NCBI RefSeq assembly: GCF_023698535.1
Contig: NZ_JALJCL010000004.1
Coordinates: forward strand, 1-64,000
Source: Halorientalis regularis
Lineage (GTDB): Archaea; Halobacteriota; Halobacteria; Halobacteriales; Haloarculaceae
Length of the DNA: 64,000 nucleotides
Reading direction: 5' to 3'
Shown: positions 5,762 through 37,180 of the stretch, piece after piece
Layout of the letters: each line of letters begins with the position of its first letter
Position numbering within the stretch: the stretch's first letter is position 1
Notes under the pieces: model-generated
What the model was told of the DNA's origin: nothing
The model's database searches: none
What the model saw: only the letters and a program-made list of their open reading frames with translations
Made by a program: the position numbers and the translations under genes

Positions 5762-6835
5762 TCAGACCACATCCCACGATAGAACCGCGTCCACGGGTAT
5801 CTTTTTCCGGGCTTTTCGACCCACGACAACGTCGAGCATTGTCGGTGAAATCCCCGTCCCGGGTCGCTTGATCGCGACATCATCACGAGTGATCTCGGCA
5901 CCTCGTTCGATATCCTTGGCGGCCACCAAGCTCCGACGGGCGTGCGTCCGACTGTCTGATTCGGCTGCAATCGGCTCTTTCCGCGACGATCCAGTCGTCG
6001 TCAGCATCCGAGAAGTGTTCTCACGGAACGTCCTTACGTCGGTAGGATCCATCGCGTGATAGTGATCGTTACCGTCCAGACTTTTGTCCAAGGTAAAGTG
6101 CTTCTCGATGATGTCGGCTCCCTGAAATACCGAATTGAGTAGCGTGATCATTCCGGAATCGGGTGGTACGTGATCTGAATATCCTATCTCGTACTCTGGA
6201 TATACTTCCGAAAGATGGTCGATCATCCCTAGATTTGCGTTTTCCTCTGTAGTAGGGTACTGAAGGATACAGTGGAGCAAACACAGTTCTGGATCGGGCG
6301 TTTCGTCCTCGATTACACGAACGGCATCGTCGATCTCGCTGATCGTGCTTGCTCCTGTCGAGAGTAAAATCGGTTTTTCCTTCCGTGCAATCGCCCGCAG
6401 AAGCGGATGGTTTGTAATGTCTGCGCTCGCGATTTTATAGGCGGGAACCACTTCGCTCAGATACTCAACGGCGTGAAAATCGAACGGGGTGGAGAGAAAG
6501 TCCAAATCGTAGTTGGCGTCGGTCCAGTCTGCGAGTTCGGCGAATTCGTCGGCACCAAAGTCATCGTACTGCTGGAACAACTCGTACTGCGAGTCCGTCG
6601 TCTCTTCGTCTGTATCCCAATACGCCGGCGAGTGCTTTGACGTTAGTCGGTCGGCAGTGTACGATTGGAACTTGACAGCATCGACACCTGCATCAGCAGC
6701 TTCGTTAATCATTTTCTTCGCGGCGTCGATGGGGGAGCAGCCACGCTGTTCGGCAATATCGAAGTGGTTGACCCCGATCTCTGCAATCAAATATGGTTGC
6801 AAGCGAGTCCCAATTTTTGTATTAGCTATCTGCAT
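5762..6835 (-). CDS. neuB: N-acetylneuraminate (nonulosonate) synthase NeuB family
   Basis: A 357-residue enzyme with the full NeuB layout. The TIM barrel starts IAEIGVNH and carries DAVKFQSYTADRLTS, YKIASADITNHPLL, KPILLSTGAST, HCILQYPT, IGYSDH and IIEKHFTLDKSLDGNDH. It ends in a C-terminal SAF/antifreeze-like domain (RRSLVAAKDIERGAEITRDD...). It condenses phosphoenolpyruvate with a six-carbon amino sugar to form a nine-carbon nonulosonic acid. Sequence alone does not decide between sialic, legionaminic and pseudaminic acid. The start at 6835 overlaps the end of the upstream CMP-sugar synthetase gene by 14 nt (alternative ATG 6844), so the two are co-transcribed. Confidence 0.88.
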   Translation of the reverse strand: MQIANTKIGTRLQPYLIAEIGVNHFDIAEQRGCSPIDAAKKMINEAADAGVDAVKFQSYTADRLTSKHSPAYWDTDEETTDSQYELFQQYDDFGADEFAELADWTDANYDLDFLSTPFDFHAVEYLSEVVPAYKIASADITNHPLLRAIARKEKPILLSTGASTISEIDDAVRVIEDETPDPELCLLHCILQYPTTEENANLGMIDHLSEVYPEYEIGYSDHVPPDSGMITLLNSVFQGADIIEKHFTLDKSLDGNDHYHAMDPTDVRTFRENTSRMLTTTGSSRKEPIAAESDSRTHARRSLVAAKDIERGAEITRDDVAIKRPGTGISPTMLDVVVGRKARKKIPVDAVLSWDVV

Positions 6836-8462
6836 ATTTCTCATTGAAAATGATCTGTTTGATACGGTCAATCCCATTATCGATATCGTGGTCGGAGAGT
6901 GCTTGACGCATCGTTTCGCGTTTCGTAGGCTCGTTGATGTACTCGATCACTGCATCAAGGATCTTCTCTTCCAGGACGTATTCTGCCAGTCCCAGTGACA
7001 AAATACCCTGTGACACGTGTGCATAGGGATGTTTCTGTTCTCTGGCATTCTGTGCAAGCGAGATTACTGGGAGATTCAGTGAGGCAGCCTCGTAGAGCGT
7101 ACGGCCGTTCGAGGTAATTAACAGATCCGCTGCTCCCATGTGTTGCGCCATCGACTGGACCTCTCGGTTGATTTCGACCGTGTGTCGGTCGGGAATTTTG
7201 GAAACTATCGATTCAAGTGAGCCCCTATCGCCGTACCCAAGACCAAGCACGACATCGAGATGTAGACTATCATCGATTGACGAAATTGCCTCAAGTGTCC
7301 GTGCAGTCAGGTTGTTCTGATCTGCGCCACCAAAGGAGATCATGATCCGGTCGACTGACTCGATAGCTGATTTCTGCTTGCTGAATCTGAACTCTCCCCT
7401 GAGACAGAAGTACTGGAACCCGTAGTAATGGTTCTCGGGCGGATTCGAATATTCGTATAGCGCATTTATCACAGCATCTGCGTGATTGGCTCCCTCGCCG
7501 AGGTCCTCGAAGTTCACCACACGAGCGCCTGTCTCCTGCAGTGATCGAACGTAGTCGCCTGCTGTATCTAGGATATCGTTCAGGACGACGAACGGTGAGG
7601 CGTCGCCGACGTAGGCCAAAAACGAGTCGTTGTCATCGAACACCCGATAGTCGTAATTGTTCTCCTCGAGTTTCTCGATGGCGATGTCGTCGTTTGGGCT
7701 GACCGCAAAGAGGATGTCGTGTTTGAAGAGCTCGTCCGCAATGGTGATACCTCGAAAGATGTGACCAGTCCCGTTCTCTTCGTTCCCCGTGACGCGATAT
7801 ACGAGTTGTTTACGATCCAGGTAACTCTCTGCGGTTATCCAGTCCGTGTAAGTGTCGATATCGATACCCTCTCGCGAACTGACAGTATAAAACGTGGGAT
7901 CGTCGCCAATTCGGCGACTGTCCTTGATGACAGCGTTGTGAGATAAGAACACCCCGATCTCGGCGTATATCGGATCCATCTGTTGGCGGTTCTTCCGGTC
8001 CGAGGAGACAGGTTCGTAACCACTGTCGGTTTCTTTCCAGTAGTGATGCGTACTGTCTGCGACGAAGACGCCGCTGTCCGAAGTCCGGTCAAGAACGTAT
8101 TGAATGCCGTCATCGATGGTTCCTGGTTCGATAAGCGGGGTCGTCGGCTGGAAACAGAGGACGTAGGTGAAGTCACCGTCGACTGACTCGAATGCGTGCT
8201 TGACGACTGGAGCGAGTGGAACGTCATCAGTTGCGAGATGCGCAGGTCGATCAATGACAGCGTCGGCATCGAAGTGTCGGCCGATCTGAGCAATCTCTCT
8301 ACTGTCTGTTGTTATTGCTACTTCGTCAATTAGTGATGCCTGGTGACTCGTTTCGATAGCGTGTCCAATGAGCGGTTTCCCTCCTAGGTCTCGGACGTTC
8401 TTTCGAGGAATACCCTTCGACCCCTTTCTAGCTGGAATAACAGAGAGGATCTCTTCGTCCAT
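6822..8462 (-). CDS. CMP-nonulosonate synthetase fused to PseG-like hydrolase/transferase domain
   Basis: A two-domain protein of 546 residues. Residues 1 to about 215 are a CMP-sialic-acid-type cytidylyltransferase (SVIPARKGSKGIPRKN at 7-22, QPTTPL at 105-110, GIDIDTYTDW at 199-208). Residues from about 220 form a GT-B-like domain matching PseG, the UDP-sugar hydrolase of nonulosonate pathways (GTGHIFRGITIADEL at 231-245, ISFGGADQNN at 375-384, LLITSNGRTLYEAASLNLPV). The fusion joins an early UDP-releasing step to the final CMP activation step. It is the first gene of an overlapping operon with neuB and has its own TATA box. Whether the product is pseudaminic or legionaminic acid is open. 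Confidence 0.85.
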   Translation of the reverse strand: MDEEILSVIPARKGSKGIPRKNVRDLGGKPLIGHAIETSHQASLIDEVAITTDSREIAQIGRHFDADAVIDRPAHLATDDVPLAPVVKHAFESVDGDFTYVLCFQPTTPLIEPGTIDDGIQYVLDRTSDSGVFVADSTHHYWKETDSGYEPVSSDRKNRQQMDPIYAEIGVFLSHNAVIKDSRRIGDDPTFYTVSSREGIDIDTYTDWITAESYLDRKQLVYRVTGNEENGTGHIFRGITIADELFKHDILFAVSPNDDIAIEKLEENNYDYRVFDDNDSFLAYVGDASPFVVLNDILDTAGDYVRSLQETGARVVNFEDLGEGANHADAVINALYEYSNPPENHYYGFQYFCLRGEFRFSKQKSAIESVDRIMISFGGADQNNLTARTLEAISSIDDSLHLDVVLGLGYGDRGSLESIVSKIPDRHTVEINREVQSMAQHMGAADLLITSNGRTLYEAASLNLPVISLAQNAREQKHPYAHVSQGILSLGLAEYVLEEKILDAVIEYINEPTKRETMRQALSDHDIDNGIDRIKQIIFNEKYADS

Positions 8463-17356: not shown

Positions 17357-18675
17357 TCGATGTATCCTAGATCTTCTAAGTTCTCTTCGACGCTGTCTCG
17401 GAGCCCCTCGTGGCCCCGCTTGTCGGTCCTAGCAGCGGTTCCAGTAGCGGCGTGATCGTCCAGTAGCGTTCGCAGTTCCGCAGCGATTTCGGGTTCGTCT
17501 CCGATCACGTTCGCACCGTCGGTCGACATGTGTGGTCCGTGGTAGAGTTCGGTTTCCTCGGCCGCTGTATCGGTCAGGAGCTTCCATTCGCCGCGTCTGA
17601 CCCCGTAGTAGCTCCCGTCGTGCTGGAAGAAGACGGGTGCTTCGAGATTGCGATCTTTTTCTGGAAGTGATGTCCCGGGACGATCTGGATATTCCGGTAC
17701 GTGACCGTTGAGTACCGTCGGGAACACGTCGACGTGTTCCGCGATACCGTCTCTGACGACGCCGGAATCGAGCTCAGCCGACCGCACGATCGTCGGCACT
17801 TGCGTGTAACTCGAGTGGAGCGTGGCGATGTGAAACTCCTCGAACTGCCCGAACTCCTCGCCGTGGTCGCCGGTCAGAATGACGGTAGCGTCGTCGGGCG
17901 CGTGGTTGAGGAGACGACCGATCTGTTCGTCGGCGCTCCGGATCCCCGCGTCGTACGCGTCGATCACCGCTTGTGGCGGCGCCTCGCCGACCGTGATCGC
18001 GTCGGATCGACCTGGGTGGATGACGTGTTCGACGTCTACATCGCCCCGAAGTGCCTTCAGGTGGTCGTCCCACCGGGCGTAGGGCGTGTGTGCGTCCATA
18101 AGGTGAATCCAGGCAAAGTGATCGTTCTCGGCACGTCGCTGTTCGTCGAGCCAGTCAACCGCGTGGTCGACCACGTCCACGTCCGTCACGCTAGGCTGGA
18201 ACTCGCTGCCAGCGACGCGTTCGAACAGTCGGTAGAGTTTCGATAGCCGCTCCCGGAGCCACCCGGCCCCGATCAGGTTGTCGACGCCGCGGGCGAGGCT
18301 CTCGACGATACCCTGTTCGTCGGCGAAGTCGGAGACAGATAGATAGGTGTCGAACCCGATATCATATCCGTAGTCGCGGCTGAGATACCCGTTGTTTGCA
18401 AAGCCGGCGGTCGCGTACCCGGCCTCGCGGAACAGTTCGGCCAGCGTGGGGACGGCTTCCGGGATTCCGAGGCCGTCGATTTGGTTCGTGTACAATCCTG
18501 TGTGAATCGTCTGGAGTGTCCACCGCGTTCCCGGACAGTTCGCGTAGGAGACTTCGAACCATGTCGCGTCGTCCACGAACGCGTCTATGTGAGGTGTCGT
18601 CGGCCGGTCGTATCCATAACAGCCGACGTGGTCCGCTCTGAGGCAGTCGACGGTTATCAGCAGTACGGAGTCCAT
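17353..18675 (-). CDS. Sulfatase/alkaline-phosphatase superfamily protein
   Basis: A 440-residue member of the sulfatase superfamily: metal-binding VLLITVDCLRADHVGCYGY with PTTPHIDAF, GDHGEEFGQF and HDGSYYGVRRGEWKLL near the C-terminus. The nucleophile region reads NCPGTRWT (C47). The formylglycine motif is C-x-P-x-R, but here Pro follows Cys directly, so C47 and R51 are kept while the Pro is displaced. It may act as a phospho- or sulfo-transferase/hydrolase on the glycan. It has no signal peptide, so it is probably cytoplasmic. It is the first gene of the overlapping operon. Confidence 0.75.
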   Translation of the reverse strand: MDSVLLITVDCLRADHVGCYGYDRPTTPHIDAFVDDATWFEVSYANCPGTRWTLQTIHTGLYTNQIDGLGIPEAVPTLAELFREAGYATAGFANNGYLSRDYGYDIGFDTYLSVSDFADEQGIVESLARGVDNLIGAGWLRERLSKLYRLFERVAGSEFQPSVTDVDVVDHAVDWLDEQRRAENDHFAWIHLMDAHTPYARWDDHLKALRGDVDVEHVIHPGRSDAITVGEAPPQAVIDAYDAGIRSADEQIGRLLNHAPDDATVILTGDHGEEFGQFEEFHIATLHSSYTQVPTIVRSAELDSGVVRDGIAEHVDVFPTVLNGHVPEYPDRPGTSLPEKDRNLEAPVFFQHDGSYYGVRRGEWKLLTDTAAEETELYHGPHMSTDGANVIGDEPEIAAELRTLLDDHAATGTAARTDKRGHEGLRDSVEENLEDLGYIE

Positions 18676-24768: not shown

Positions 24769-25536
24769 CTACTCCGTCACCGTCTCTGCACTCTCGTCAG
24801 CCGCGACTTCTGCGTCCGCTTCACCCTTGTCCTGCAACCGCCGCTCGGCTTCCTCTCTGTCCTCGGGATAGCCCACGTCAATCCGCCAGCCGTCCATCCG
24901 AAGCGCGTCGATGGTTCGCCCGGACTGGAGCAACAGGTCGATGGCCTCACTGATCTCGTACTCGCCCCGATCCGACGGCTGGACGAGATGACAGGCGTGG
25001 AAGATGGCCGGCGTGAAGGTGTAGAAACCGGTCATCACCAGATTCGACGGCGGCTCGTCGGGCTTCTCGACGACCTCGACGATCTCCCCGTAGTCGTTGG
25101 TATCACAGACACCGTACCGGCTGGCATCTTCCCACGGCACTTCCTCGACGAGAAACGCCGCATCGGCACGACTCTCGCGCTGACGGTTGACCACGTCCGC
25201 GAGGTTCGCCTGGAAGACGTTGTCGCCAAGCATCAGCATGAAGTCGTCGTCGATATGCTCTTCCACCGTCAGCAGGGCGTGGGCCAGCCCTTGCTGTTCG
25301 CGCTGGTGGGTGTAGGTGATCGGGACGCCGTCGAACTCGTCGCCGTAGTGGTCGATTATGACCTCCTTCATATAGCCGACGACGACGACCAGTTCGTCCG
25401 CGCCGAGATCGACCAGTTGCTCGAAACAGTGGGTGAGGATCGGCTTGTCTTCGACCTCGACCATTCCCTTGGGCTTGTCCTCGGTGAGGGGACGCAGCCG
25501 CGTTCCCTCGCCGGCGGCCAACACGACGGCTTTCAT
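24769..25536 (-). CDS. aglF: Sugar-1-phosphate nucleotidylyltransferase (AglF-like)
   Basis: A 255-residue enzyme: VLAAGEGTRLRPLTEDKPKG (NTP-binding signature), MVEVEDKPIL, DFMLMLGDNVF (metal-binding DN), GYPEDREEAERRL at the end, and a short acidic tail. Haloarchaeal homologues (AglF) make UDP-glucose from glucose-1-phosphate for N-glycan assembly; a dTDP-glucose-type activity cannot be excluded. The UDP-glucose dehydrogenase gene (aglM-like) 7 kb away would use its product. It stands alone between a TA-like remnant and the wHTH/NTase operon. Confidence 0.8.
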   Translation of the reverse strand: MKAVVLAAGEGTRLRPLTEDKPKGMVEVEDKPILTHCFEQLVDLGADELVVVVGYMKEVIIDHYGDEFDGVPITYTHQREQQGLAHALLTVEEHIDDDFMLMLGDNVFQANLADVVNRQRESRADAAFLVEEVPWEDASRYGVCDTNDYGEIVEVVEKPDEPPSNLVMTGFYTFTPAIFHACHLVQPSDRGEYEISEAIDLLLQSGRTIDALRMDGWRIDVGYPEDREEAERRLQDKGEADAEVAADESAETVTE

Positions 25537-32097: not shown

Positions 32098-32189
32098 ATG
32101 ACATTGTTCGCCATCAACCTACTTGAACATCCGCCTCGGACCAATCTCCCAACCGAACCCTCAAGGCCGGTGACGTGGACGAACCCTGT

Positions 32190-33485
32190 ATGCACGTAAG
32201 CGTCGTCGGCAGCGGCTACGTCGGGACGACCATCGCGGCCTGTTTCGCCGACCTCGGTCACGAGGTCACGAGCGTCGACATCGACGAGACCGTCGTCGAC
32301 GCGATCAACGACGGCGAGGCCCCGATCCACGAACCCGGGCTCGACCCGCTCGTCTCGGTCTACGGCGGTGACCAGTTGCGAGCCACGACCGACTACGACG
32401 CCATCGCCGACACCGACGTGACCTTCCTCGCGCTCCCGACGCCGAAACACGACGACGGGAGCATCGACACCTCGATCATGGAAGCCGGTGCCGAATCCGT
32501 CGGCGAGGCCATCGCCGACAAGGACGACTACCACCTCGTCGTCGTCAAGAGCACCGTCGTCCCCGGCACGACCGAGGACACCCTGACGCCGATCCTCGAA
32601 TCGGCCTCGGGAAAGACCGCGGGCGAGGACTTCGGCGTCGCGGTCAATCCCGAGTTCCTCCGGGAGGGGACCGCGGTGGACGACTTCATGGAACCGGACA
32701 AGATCGTCGTGGGGACGGACGGCGACGGTCGCGCGCTCGACCGCCTCGCGGAGGTCTACGAACCGCTCGTCCTCCAGTGGGACGTGCCCGTCTTCGAGAC
32801 CGGCCGTCGCGAGGCCGAGATGATCAAGTACGCCAACAACGCCTTCCTCGCGAGCAAGGTGAGCCTCATCAACGACATCGGGAACATCTGCAAGGAGTAC
32901 GGCGTCGACGCCTACGAGGTCGCCGAAGCCATCGGCCTCGACGACCGCATCGGCGAGCGGTTCCTCCGGAGCGGGGTCGGATGGGGGGGCAGCTGCTTCC
33001 CGAAGGACACCGCGGCGATCATCCAGCACGCCCGCGACGCGGGCTACGAGCCGCGGATGCTAGAAGCCGCGGTTGAGGTCAACGACCGCCAGCCCGAGCG
33101 GCTCCTCGACTTGCTCGACGATCACGTCGACGCCGACGGGGAGCGGATCGCAGTCCTCGGGCTCGCATTCAAGCCCGGCACCGACGACATCCGGAACTCG
33201 CGGGCGATTCCGGTGATCGAGGGACTCCGCGAGCGTGGGGCTGAGATCATCGCGTACGACCCCGTCGCGGCGAGTGAGATGGCCGGGCGGTTCCCCGGCA
33301 TCGAGTACGCCGAGTCGGCGGCCGCGGCGCTCGACGGCGCGAGCGGTGCCGTCGTCGTCACCGACTGGGACGAGTTCGGGACCCTGGACGAGGAGTTCGA
33401 CGCGATGGCCGACCCCGTGGTCGTCGACGGCCGACGGATCGTCGAGCGCCGCGAGGGTATCACCTACGAAGGACTGACCTGGTGA
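32190..33485 (+). CDS. aglM: UDP-glucose 6-dehydrogenase (AglM-like)
   Basis: A 431-residue enzyme of the UDP-glucose/GDP-mannose dehydrogenase family: [21 protein letters not shown] (NAD-binding), [51 protein letters not shown], the catalytic Cys in [13 protein letters not shown], and a C-terminal domain with [14 protein letters not shown]. It oxidises UDP-glucose to UDP-glucuronate for hexuronic acids in haloarchaeal surface glycans. The ATG at 32190 is chosen over 32175. It is separate from the aglF-like gene but uses the same pathway. Confidence 0.9.
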
Positions 33486-34828: not shown

Positions 34829-37180
34829 TCACCCGGTCCGATCCCCGGATGTGACGTTGCGCTCGCTCACCGATACCGTCTCGTTCCAGAGTCTATACTC
34901 GCCGGGATAGGGCACGGTGACGGCGTACTCGCCCGCGGCGTTCGTCCGGACCTGGCGCTCGTAGGTGAAGGGCGCGCCGGGCACGTCGACCGACCGGGAG
35001 AGTGTGGTGGTCGCGTTCGCCGGCCCGGTGCCGGTGATCGTCGCGCCGGGGATGACTCGGAACGCCTTGTACGTCCCGTCGTCGGACGCGAAGACGGCGC
35101 GGAAATGGGCCAGCCCGTCGACGGGCGACTGGCGGGAGCCGAACCCGTCGTGAAGGCGGGTGAACAGCGACCGCGCGCTCGCGTTCGAGTTCGATACTGA
35201 CTCGGTGACGACGTAGCCGACTCGATTCCGGTGGCTCCGGTACCACTGGGACTCGTTGCCCGACGCGTACAGCGTCCGGTACTGTTGGCGTGCGTACCCG
35301 TAGGACCGGGATTCCCCGTTGACGAAGTAGTTGAACATCCGGTTGCGGGCCCACTGGCTGAGGACGTAATCGTCGGGGTAGCTCAGGTTCGCGGCGGTGG
35401 CGTGGTCGTCGATGGCCGCCGCCGACTGGTACGCGCCGCCCTCGATGGTGACCTGGCTCGTCTTGATCGGCGTCTGGAGGACGCCGACGCCGCCGACCAG
35501 CAGGAACAGGGCGACGAGCAACCCGGCTTCGCGGACGGTCGGGACCCGAAGCGTCGCGGTACCGCCGTCGGCGGCGCTGTCGCCAGCACCCGCTCTTGGG
35601 TTCGGAGTGGCTGGCTCGTCGACGAACGGTCGCGGAATCGCGGCGAGGTCGACCCAGTGGGCCAGCCAGACGAAGCCAAGGCCACCGAAGAGGGCGGTGA
35701 AGGCGGCGAGTTCGCCGACGAAGCGGACCTGCACCGCCGCGAGTGCGAGGAAGTACCAGGTGTATACGACCGCAACGAGCCACGGTTTCGACCCGTCGGT
35801 GGCGCGCCGACTCGCCCAGAGCAGCGGCGGCAGCGCGAGAACGAGCACCAGCCCGAGCAACAGGAACCAGGTGAAATCGCCGCTGATCAGCGGCTGGGTC
35901 TCGACGATGTTCCGGGTCGCGAAGAACGTGTCCGCGCGCGCTCCGACCCGTCCCCAGAAGTTCTCGAAGACTGTCGGAATCAGGAAGACGGCCGCGACCG
36001 CCCCGACGACCTCCGTACCGGCCATGGCGAGGGTCGGGAGGTCGAGCCGGTGGGCGACTTCTCCGACGGCCAGCACGCCCGCGGCCCCGGCGACGAGCAA
36101 CAGTGGGATCGCGGCCACGAAGTCGGTGTGCCAGCCCATCTCGCCGTGGACGAAGTGGACGACCAGCGCGGCCAGCGCGAGTCCACCGAGCAGCGGCGCG
36201 TTCGACTGCAGGGGTGAGCGGTCGGCGCCGATGTCGAGCAGGACCGCCAGCGCCACCACGAGCGCGATCGGAACCACGAGCGCCGGCCCGTTCTCCCAGG
36301 CGAGTATCTGCCCGGCGACACCGATCCCGAGTCCAACCCCCGCGACCCAGGCTCCCGGGTCTCGATACGCCCGCTCGTCCTGAGCCGCGAGGACGACCAG
36401 CGTGAGCGCCGTGAGGACCAGCCACGGGTAGTCGAAGGCGTGGTGGTCGGCGAAGCCGAGACTCGTACGGAGCGCGTGGGCAGGCGTCGTCGCCAGGAAC
36501 ACGACCGCGGCCAGCCCGACTCGCCGGTCGTCGGTGAGCCGAACCGCGAGGACGTACAGCAGGAGTCCCGTGAGCAGCGCCGACGCGACCGGATACCACG
36601 CCATGACGGTCCCAACCGACGACGCAGTTCCGCCGAACAGGTCCGATAGCCAGTACAGCGCAGCGATCACGAATGGCTCACCGTTCGCCAGGGGGATGTC
36701 ACTCAACAGGGCAGCGTCGAATCCTCCGCCCCGTGTCAGCAGGCCCTCGACGTAGTACCGGTAAAAATATAGATCGTTCCCCGACAGGACCACGGCTCCG
36801 TCGCGGAACACCGATCCGAACGAAAACATCGTCCGGAAGATGACGACCACGGCGAGCGCGCCGGAAAGCGCGCCTGCGGCCCGTGCGTCCACGTCGACGG
36901 CGGGCAGTGACAGGTCCCGCTCCGCCCCGTTCGACTCGGCAGTTGCCTCGTCCGCGTCGCCGTCGAGCGCGCGCCGCGTCGCCTCGGGGAGCCGATACTC
37001 CCCGTCGACTTTCTCGACGAGGTCCGCAGACACGAGTTCGCCGAACGTGCCTGAGTCGATTGGTACGTCCTCGAAGGTCCAGGTCTCTTGGGCGTCGTCG
37101 ACGGGGCGGAGGGATTCGAGTGCGGACGCCAGCTCCGGGCGCTCCTCCAGCGTCGCCGTGGCGTCGCGCTCGTCTGCCAT
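34829..37180 (-). CDS. STT3/AglB-like protein lacking the WWDYG motif
   Basis: A 783-residue AglB paralogue. Residues 1 to about 65 look like a winged helix (TFEDVPIDSGTFGELVSADLVEKVDGEYRLP), then about 12 membrane helices follow. The first external loop has GNDLYFYRYYVEGLL (the catalytic GxD region), and ADHHAFDYPW (about residue 243) matches the conserved DHH loop. In the C-terminal periplasmic domain the WWDYG position reads VLSQWARNRMFN (about residues 605-616), so the acceptor-binding motif is gone; the later HFRAVFASDDGTYKAF and GATITGTGPANATTTL match AglB. It may have lost oligosaccharyltransferase activity or act on other acceptors. True AglB is not in the window. Confidence 0.82.
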   Translation of the reverse strand: MADERDATATLEERPELASALESLRPVDDAQETWTFEDVPIDSGTFGELVSADLVEKVDGEYRLPEATRRALDGDADEATAESNGAERDLSLPAVDVDARAAGALSGALAVVVIFRTMFSFGSVFRDGAVVLSGNDLYFYRYYVEGLLTRGGGFDAALLSDIPLANGEPFVIAALYWLSDLFGGTASSVGTVMAWYPVASALLTGLLLYVLAVRLTDDRRVGLAAVVFLATTPAHALRTSLGFADHHAFDYPWLVLTALTLVVLAAQDERAYRDPGAWVAGVGLGIGVAGQILAWENGPALVVPIALVVALAVLLDIGADRSPLQSNAPLLGGLALAALVVHFVHGEMGWHTDFVAAIPLLLVAGAAGVLAVGEVAHRLDLPTLAMAGTEVVGAVAAVFLIPTVFENFWGRVGARADTFFATRNIVETQPLISGDFTWFLLLGLVLVLALPPLLWASRRATDGSKPWLVAVVYTWYFLALAAVQVRFVGELAAFTALFGGLGFVWLAHWVDLAAIPRPFVDEPATPNPRAGAGDSAADGGTATLRVPTVREAGLLVALFLLVGGVGVLQTPIKTSQVTIEGGAYQSAAAIDDHATAANLSYPDDYVLSQWARNRMFNYFVNGESRSYGYARQQYRTLYASGNESQWYRSHRNRVGYVVTESVSNSNASARSLFTRLHDGFGSRQSPVDGLAHFRAVFASDDGTYKAFRVIPGATITGTGPANATTTLSRSVDVPGAPFTYERQVRTNAAGEYAVTVPYPGEYRLWNETVSVSERNVTSGDRTG

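Follow-up and report, generated by a model that had tools for sequence, protein, structure and literature searches.

What does an STT3/AglB-type protein do once the WWDYG motif of its acceptor site has been replaced? The WWDYG and DK/MI motifs are regarded as setting the N-X-S/T sequon, a rule taken to be almost universal, and the question is raised by a gene at 34829–37180 (minus strand) of the window, the 64,000-nucleotide stretch of Halorientalis regularis DNA analyzed here. The gene encodes a 783-residue protein of STT3/AglB fold, the window paralogue, in which the WWDYG site reads SQWARNRMF (residues 608–616). A preliminary description made from the sequence had placed this string, together with a GND motif and an ADHH loop (D245-H246-H247), in an STT3-type protein; all of these features are present, and both Pfam and an AlphaFold2 model agree with that assignment. 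It knew of no described function for such a form, and our literature search likewise found no paper describing a WWDYG-less one.

Fold and Pfam profile together place the window paralogue among the STT3/AglB/PglB proteins. It scored 32.7 bits against the STT3 family (PF02516; cut-off, 24.5) and 28.7 bits against AglB_L1 (PF18079; cut-off, 23.6), the latter corresponding to a peripheral domain at residues 712–762 (34895–35047, minus strand) that also matched structure 3wai with a Z score of 12.6, in line with the AglB-like C-terminal motifs of the preliminary description. The AlphaFold2 model (pLDDT 86, pTM 0.80) was closest to Archaeoglobus fulgidus AglB (3waj, Z 34.5 over 592 residues; 7e9s, Z 34.3), with lower matches to PglB (Z 24.8), ArnT (Z 24.0), DPY19 (Z 23.6), and Pmt4 (Z 19.9). 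Membership in TIGR04154, the archaeosortase-associated haloarchaeal STT3 family that comprises the normal AglB, was rejected, as homology was weak at 110.7 bits against a cut-off of 450. An N-terminal winged-helix-like segment had also been proposed, and residues 1–75 (36956–37180, minus strand), modeled alone, indeed folded as HHH-EE-H (pLDDT 87), with best PDB matches that were mostly winged-helix proteins (Z up to 7.5); Pfam found no family in these 75 residues. This domain is kept in most family members and missing from one subfamily, in which matches start at about residue 80 to 107. Some paralogues carry a C-terminal extension (L071, 12001–14937, and other frames of about 1,000 residues), annotated in Haladaptatus as LamG-like, a possible sugar-binding domain.

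The closest relatives of the window paralogue are from Halorientalis, and its own genome also encodes a WWDYG-containing AglB of the normal kind (L001), along with two further paralogues, one full length (L003) and one truncated (L004). The truncated copy (C2:129428–130342) is cut to approximately the first 297 residues and lies 20 kb from the full second copy at C2:149722.

The altered WWDYG site is a conserved feature of the whole family and not decay. In conservation counts over 87 aligned paralogues, which leave out one antisense open reading frame, WWDYG occurred in none, versus 40 of 40 AglBs, and 84 of the 87 instead carried V[FL][ST]xWxx[NS]RxxN at that position. A local mutation or sequencing error was ruled out on these grounds, and orthologues with an intact WWDYG, named in the preliminary description as the finding that would mark the change as local, were looked for without any appearing among the 87. 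In the window paralogue, the family motif VLSQWARNRMFN spans residues 606–617 (35330–35365, minus strand), of which W610, R614, and N617 are present in 87/87; orthologues read V-[LF]-S-x-W-G-x-N-R-M-Y-N, and A611 of the window protein is slightly atypical, glycine being found there in 66 of the 87 members. Since an hhalign comparison of the paralogue and AglB profiles spans the membrane part only, the position of the motif rests on MAFFT and structure alignments. The DK-motif Asp was retained in 8/87 paralogues versus 40/40 AglBs, a count that covers the DK form of the DK/MI part of the Ser/Thr pocket. In AglB, the WWDYG and DK/MI motifs make only the pocket for the +2 Ser/Thr (PMC8342417, PMC3703281). 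Judged from the alignment, this pocket appears to be lost in the paralogue family; the strict conservation of W610, R614, and N617 may reflect an acceptor that is specific but of another kind, as opposed to a relaxed one.

Catalytic residues showed the opposite pattern of conservation, both DXD-type motifs and the TIXE/SVSE-type Glu of the STT3 class being found across the family. The metal of A. fulgidus AglB is held by Asp47 (GND) and by Asp161 and His163 (DHH), with the TIXE Glu360 acting via water (PMC8342417). Their counterparts in the window paralogue are the invariant first motif GND (D136; 36773–36781), the second motif DHH (D245, H246, and H247; 36440–36448), and the TIXE-type loop NIVE (E427; 35900–35911), to which QVRF (R486; 35720–35731), common to AglB, can be added, all on the minus strand. 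N135, D136, H246, and R486 were each present in 87/87 paralogues and E427 in 86/87; residue 245 was Asp in 79/87 and Glu in 8/87, and H247, the counterpart of His163, was His in 65/87. As far as the alignment can be read, then, the family has kept, essentially without variation, the residues with which AglB binds metal and carries out catalysis. With these residues kept and only the +2 Ser/Thr pocket apparently gone, a changed acceptor rule would be expected and not lost catalysis, which upholds the earlier suggestion that loss of WWDYG signals a different acceptor. The retention of E427 and R486, the loss of the DK Asp, and the family-wide replacement motif go beyond the preliminary description, as do the partner genes and the occurrence of a family member in Halobacterium salinarum, both described below.

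Defined as a match to the window protein better than 1e-40, the paralogue was found in 155 of 292 sampled haloarchaeal genomes, and normal AglB (TIGR04154) was found in 287 of the 292, nearly always elsewhere in the paralogue-bearing genomes. The family therefore adds to AglB and does not replace it. One class-sample genome (G118, 100% complete) has the paralogue and no TIGR04154 match, although only three candidates were scored there and AglB may have been missed. In a phylum-wide sample, 27/27 matches were haloarchaeal, and approximately 200 non-haloarchaeal genomes gave no match, ruling out a wider archaeal family; a viral or phage origin was likewise dismissed, with no match among phages or viral contigs. 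In a tree built without the motif columns, the paralogue and haloarchaeal AglB split cleanly (support 1.0, branch 1.63).

Genes that travel with the paralogue point to a glycan pathway. In the window, these are a Bac_transf polyprenyl-phosphate sugar-1-phosphate transferase (PF02397; 18813–20273, minus strand), a predicted pathway partner, together with an AglF-type UTP-glucose-1-phosphate uridylyltransferase (24775–25536, minus strand) and a UDP-glucose 6-dehydrogenase assigned from sequence as AglM type (32175–33485, plus strand), whose families recur beside the paralogue. Across the first 35 loci, the recurrent neighbors were a sugar transferase (Bac_transf, PF02397), NDP-sugar epimerases, an AglF-type nucleotidyltransferase, and UDP-glucose dehydrogenase. 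The window's glycan island (1647–25536) also holds a NodU-like carbamoyltransferase, a sulfatase-like gene (17359–18675, minus strand), a NeuB/PseI-like synthase (5768–6877, minus strand), and a PseF+PseG-type fusion (6828–8462, minus strand), besides the Bac_transf and AglF genes; its content suggests a surface glycan containing nonulosonic acid.

Bac_transf was present in 149/155 genomes with the paralogue, six having the paralogue alone, versus 27/137 without it. Within the 22 genera in which the paralogue varies, 73 genomes had both genes, 4 only the paralogue, 2 only Bac_transf, and 69 neither, an association reached in 0 of 20,000 within-genus shuffles. Physical linkage was also evident, with Bac_transf within 20 kb of 82 of the 120 paralogues for which a Bac_transf was listed (approximately 1% expected). 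Within 8.7 kb, Bac_transf was found at 34/80 paralogue versus 0/40 AglB loci, UppP at 17/80 versus 0/40, and an epimerase at 38/80 versus 3/40; AglB itself lay that close at only 1/80 paralogue loci. In matched genomes, UppP (PF02673) was found in 15/20 with the paralogue versus 0/20 without (p 8e-7), and Wzy_C (PF04932) exceeded its cut-off in 7/20 versus 0/20. Bac_transf enzymes make polyprenyl-PP-sugar and UppP recycles polyprenyl-PP, and an initiating PF02397 transferase, expected of a polyprenyl-PP pathway, is present in nearly all paralogue-bearing genomes and often nearby. Haloarchaeal AglB pathways characterized so far use dolichol monophosphate (PMC11239922, PMC6591318); given its coupling to Bac_transf and UppP, the paralogue seems to be part of a different glycan pathway, one based on pyrophosphate.

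Proximity to S-layer genes is seen at some loci. TIGR04216 S-layer genes lie 1.3, 2.8, 3.3, 4.2, and 8.7 kb from the paralogue in five genomes of three genera. Such a gene occurred within 8.7 kb at only 2/80 sampled paralogue loci, and a general S-layer neighbor rule was ruled out. PGF-CTERM-like protein ends were found nearby at 8/80 paralogue versus 0/40 AglB loci (p 0.05, with at least one of the matches due to chance). Plasmid-borne copies of the paralogue lie close to an S-layer gene, to genes for PGF-CTERM proteins, or to those for surface glycoproteins, and UppP adjoins the paralogue in two cases.

Archaeal glycoproteins were first found in H. salinarum, a genetically tractable organism. 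One sampled genome (G018), which we take to be H. salinarum from the 100% identity of its bacteriorhodopsin to the known protein, carries a paralogue reading YVFSRWSRNRLYN (SRWSRNRLYN) at the motif, 3.3 kb from the S-layer gene csg. ABC/FtsX-type genes lie between csg and the paralogue, and on the other side of the paralogue come, in this order, glmS, two glmU-like genes, and a sugar transferase of WcaJ/EPS type. UppP (PF02673) and Wzy_C (PF04932) had no match in this genome, and carrier recycling and polymerization there would therefore need other proteins. Elsewhere in the genus, pieces of an N-terminal paralogue sequence lie between two S-layer genes (G067, C1:214019–214493; L097 and adjacent), perhaps a decayed copy.

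The S-layer protein of H. salinarum bears at Asn-2 a GalNAc-linked repeating-unit glycan that is made on Dol-PP and blocked by bacitracin; glycosylation of Asn-2 persists when Ser-4 is changed to Val, Leu, or Asn, for which there was "no suitable explanation," and a single oligosaccharyltransferase gene had been found in the organism (PMC2952790, PMC4335974). Whether AglB attaches this glycan has been left open (PMC6591318). The csg product of G018 (L100, 11447–13984) has the predicted mature start ANAD, so that Asn-2 is kept and the sequon Ser-4 is absent (N-A-D, not the published N-A-S); the published biochemistry concerns laboratory strains of H. halobium, from which this genome, assigned by bacteriorhodopsin alone, differs at the csg N terminus. 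Across genomes, Asn-2 was found in the S-layer proteins of 7/18 with the paralogue versus 0/11 without (p 0.03, in a post hoc comparison that includes some close kin), and six of these seven sites were not N-X-S/T. Asn-2 contexts in the other paralogue genomes were NAD, NER, NRG, NSN, and NAS, and several paralogue-bearing genomes have an S-layer N terminus without Asn-2. The association is suggestive only.

Based on these observations, we propose that the paralogue functions as an active GT-C transferase in the membrane, with the STT3 fold. Bac_transf would start the glycan by placing a sugar-1-phosphate on polyprenyl phosphate, the paralogue would move the flipped polyprenyl-PP glycan to an acceptor outside the cell, and UppP would recycle the carrier in most paralogue genomes. 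As its C-terminal domain lacks the Ser/Thr pocket, the acceptor would not be a classical N-X-S/T sequon; the likeliest acceptor would be a surface (S-layer) protein, in H. salinarum Asn-2 of the S-layer glycoprotein. We judge this proposal, from activity and donor to acceptor, to have about an even chance of being right. Its narrower form, in which the family is a second haloarchaeal N-oligosaccharyltransferase that places Dol-PP repeating-unit glycans on S-layer Asn residues without reading a +2 Ser/Thr, is held tentatively, with rather less than even confidence.

Known systems frame this proposal. The paralogue resembles AglB/STT3 (PF02516; 3waj, 7e9s) in its GT-C fold over nearly the full length, GND, DHH, TIXE-type Glu, QVRF, and AglB_L1, and differs in the replaced WWDYG and DK motifs, the added winged helix, and the coupling to Bac_transf and UppP. 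A. fulgidus likewise has several STT3 paralogues in one archaeon (AglB-S1, -S2, and -L), and the C-terminal domain of AglB-S2 matched with a Z score of 11.2; all three, however, have the WWDYG/DK-type Ser/Thr pocket, deformed in the S1 crystal (PMC3703281). The traits expected of the H. salinarum Asn-2 oligosaccharyltransferase, namely a Dol-PP donor, no need for a +2 Ser, and an S-layer target, match those proposed here, from which we infer the link to the gene. The Agl15 glycan of Haloferax is AglB independent; the paralogue family was absent from all sampled genomes of a presumably Haloferax-like genus (g31) and therefore would not explain that glycan.

O-linked and lipid acceptors, raised in the preliminary description, are possible, as are polysaccharide ones. 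The chief rival to our proposal is a terminal ligase or attachment enzyme of exopolysaccharide or capsule, which would pass the polyprenyl-PP glycan to a glycan or lipid. The neighbors of the paralogue at various loci (NDP-sugar enzymes, flippases, glycosyltransferases, and an O-antigen ligase family protein), the match of the H. salinarum Bac_transf to EPS/WcaJ-type families, the enrichment of Wzy_C, and the incomplete pathway for the acidic exopolysaccharide of Haloarcula hispanica (PMC9943897) are all consistent with such a role. We nevertheless consider it fairly unlikely, as the AglB-type C-terminal domains, which make protein-acceptor contacts in AglB, are kept (PF18079; 3wai), the S-layer gene is a close neighbor in H. 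salinarum, and Wzy_C was not found in many paralogue-bearing genomes. Alternatively, surface proteins could receive lipid-linked glycans on Ser or Thr. Such O-transfer would need no +2 Ser/Thr pocket and would supply an enzyme for the short S-layer O-glycans of haloarchaea, which have none known (PMC9943897, PMC8241124). Known haloarchaeal O-glycans are, however, mono- or disaccharides (PMC8241124), the linked genes fit a longer PP-linked glycan, and the TIXE Glu of N-oligosaccharyltransferases is kept, making an O-oligosaccharyltransferase improbable.

Still less probable is a GT-C monosaccharide transferase like AglS, ArnT, or PMT, acting from a Dol-P sugar on a lipid- or protein-bound glycan: the model does match ArnT, DPY19, and Pmt4, but clearly below AglB; the TIXE loop and the AglB-type domains at the C terminus are oligosaccharyltransferase traits; and association with Bac_transf and UppP argues for a donor carried on pyrophosphate. 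If the protein were instead a partner or regulator of AglB without catalytic activity, perhaps with its winged helix as a sensor, this would account for the lost sequon pocket and for the fusion of such a domain to a membrane enzyme. Conservation of the catalytic residues over 87 diverged members and the linkage of the gene with Bac_transf and UppP instead of aglB speak so strongly against the non-catalytic role once suggested that we give it hardly any weight.

Returning to the preferred reading of an active transferase with an altered acceptor rule, the paralogue offers a candidate gene for an old question, that of the oligosaccharyltransferase attaching the Dol-PP repeating-unit glycan to H. 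salinarum Asn-2, in a genome that had been thought to hold only one oligosaccharyltransferase. Given a kept catalytic core, a lost Ser/Thr pocket, and separate glycan genes, it may be the enzyme missing since the 1990s. If true, the family would represent an STT3-type N-oligosaccharyltransferase not bound by the sequon rule, and the paradox of the 1998 H. halobium Ser-4 mutants would be resolved. More broadly, a conserved, apparently active STT3 family without the WWDYG and DK/MI motifs would provide a natural test of what sets the sequon rule.
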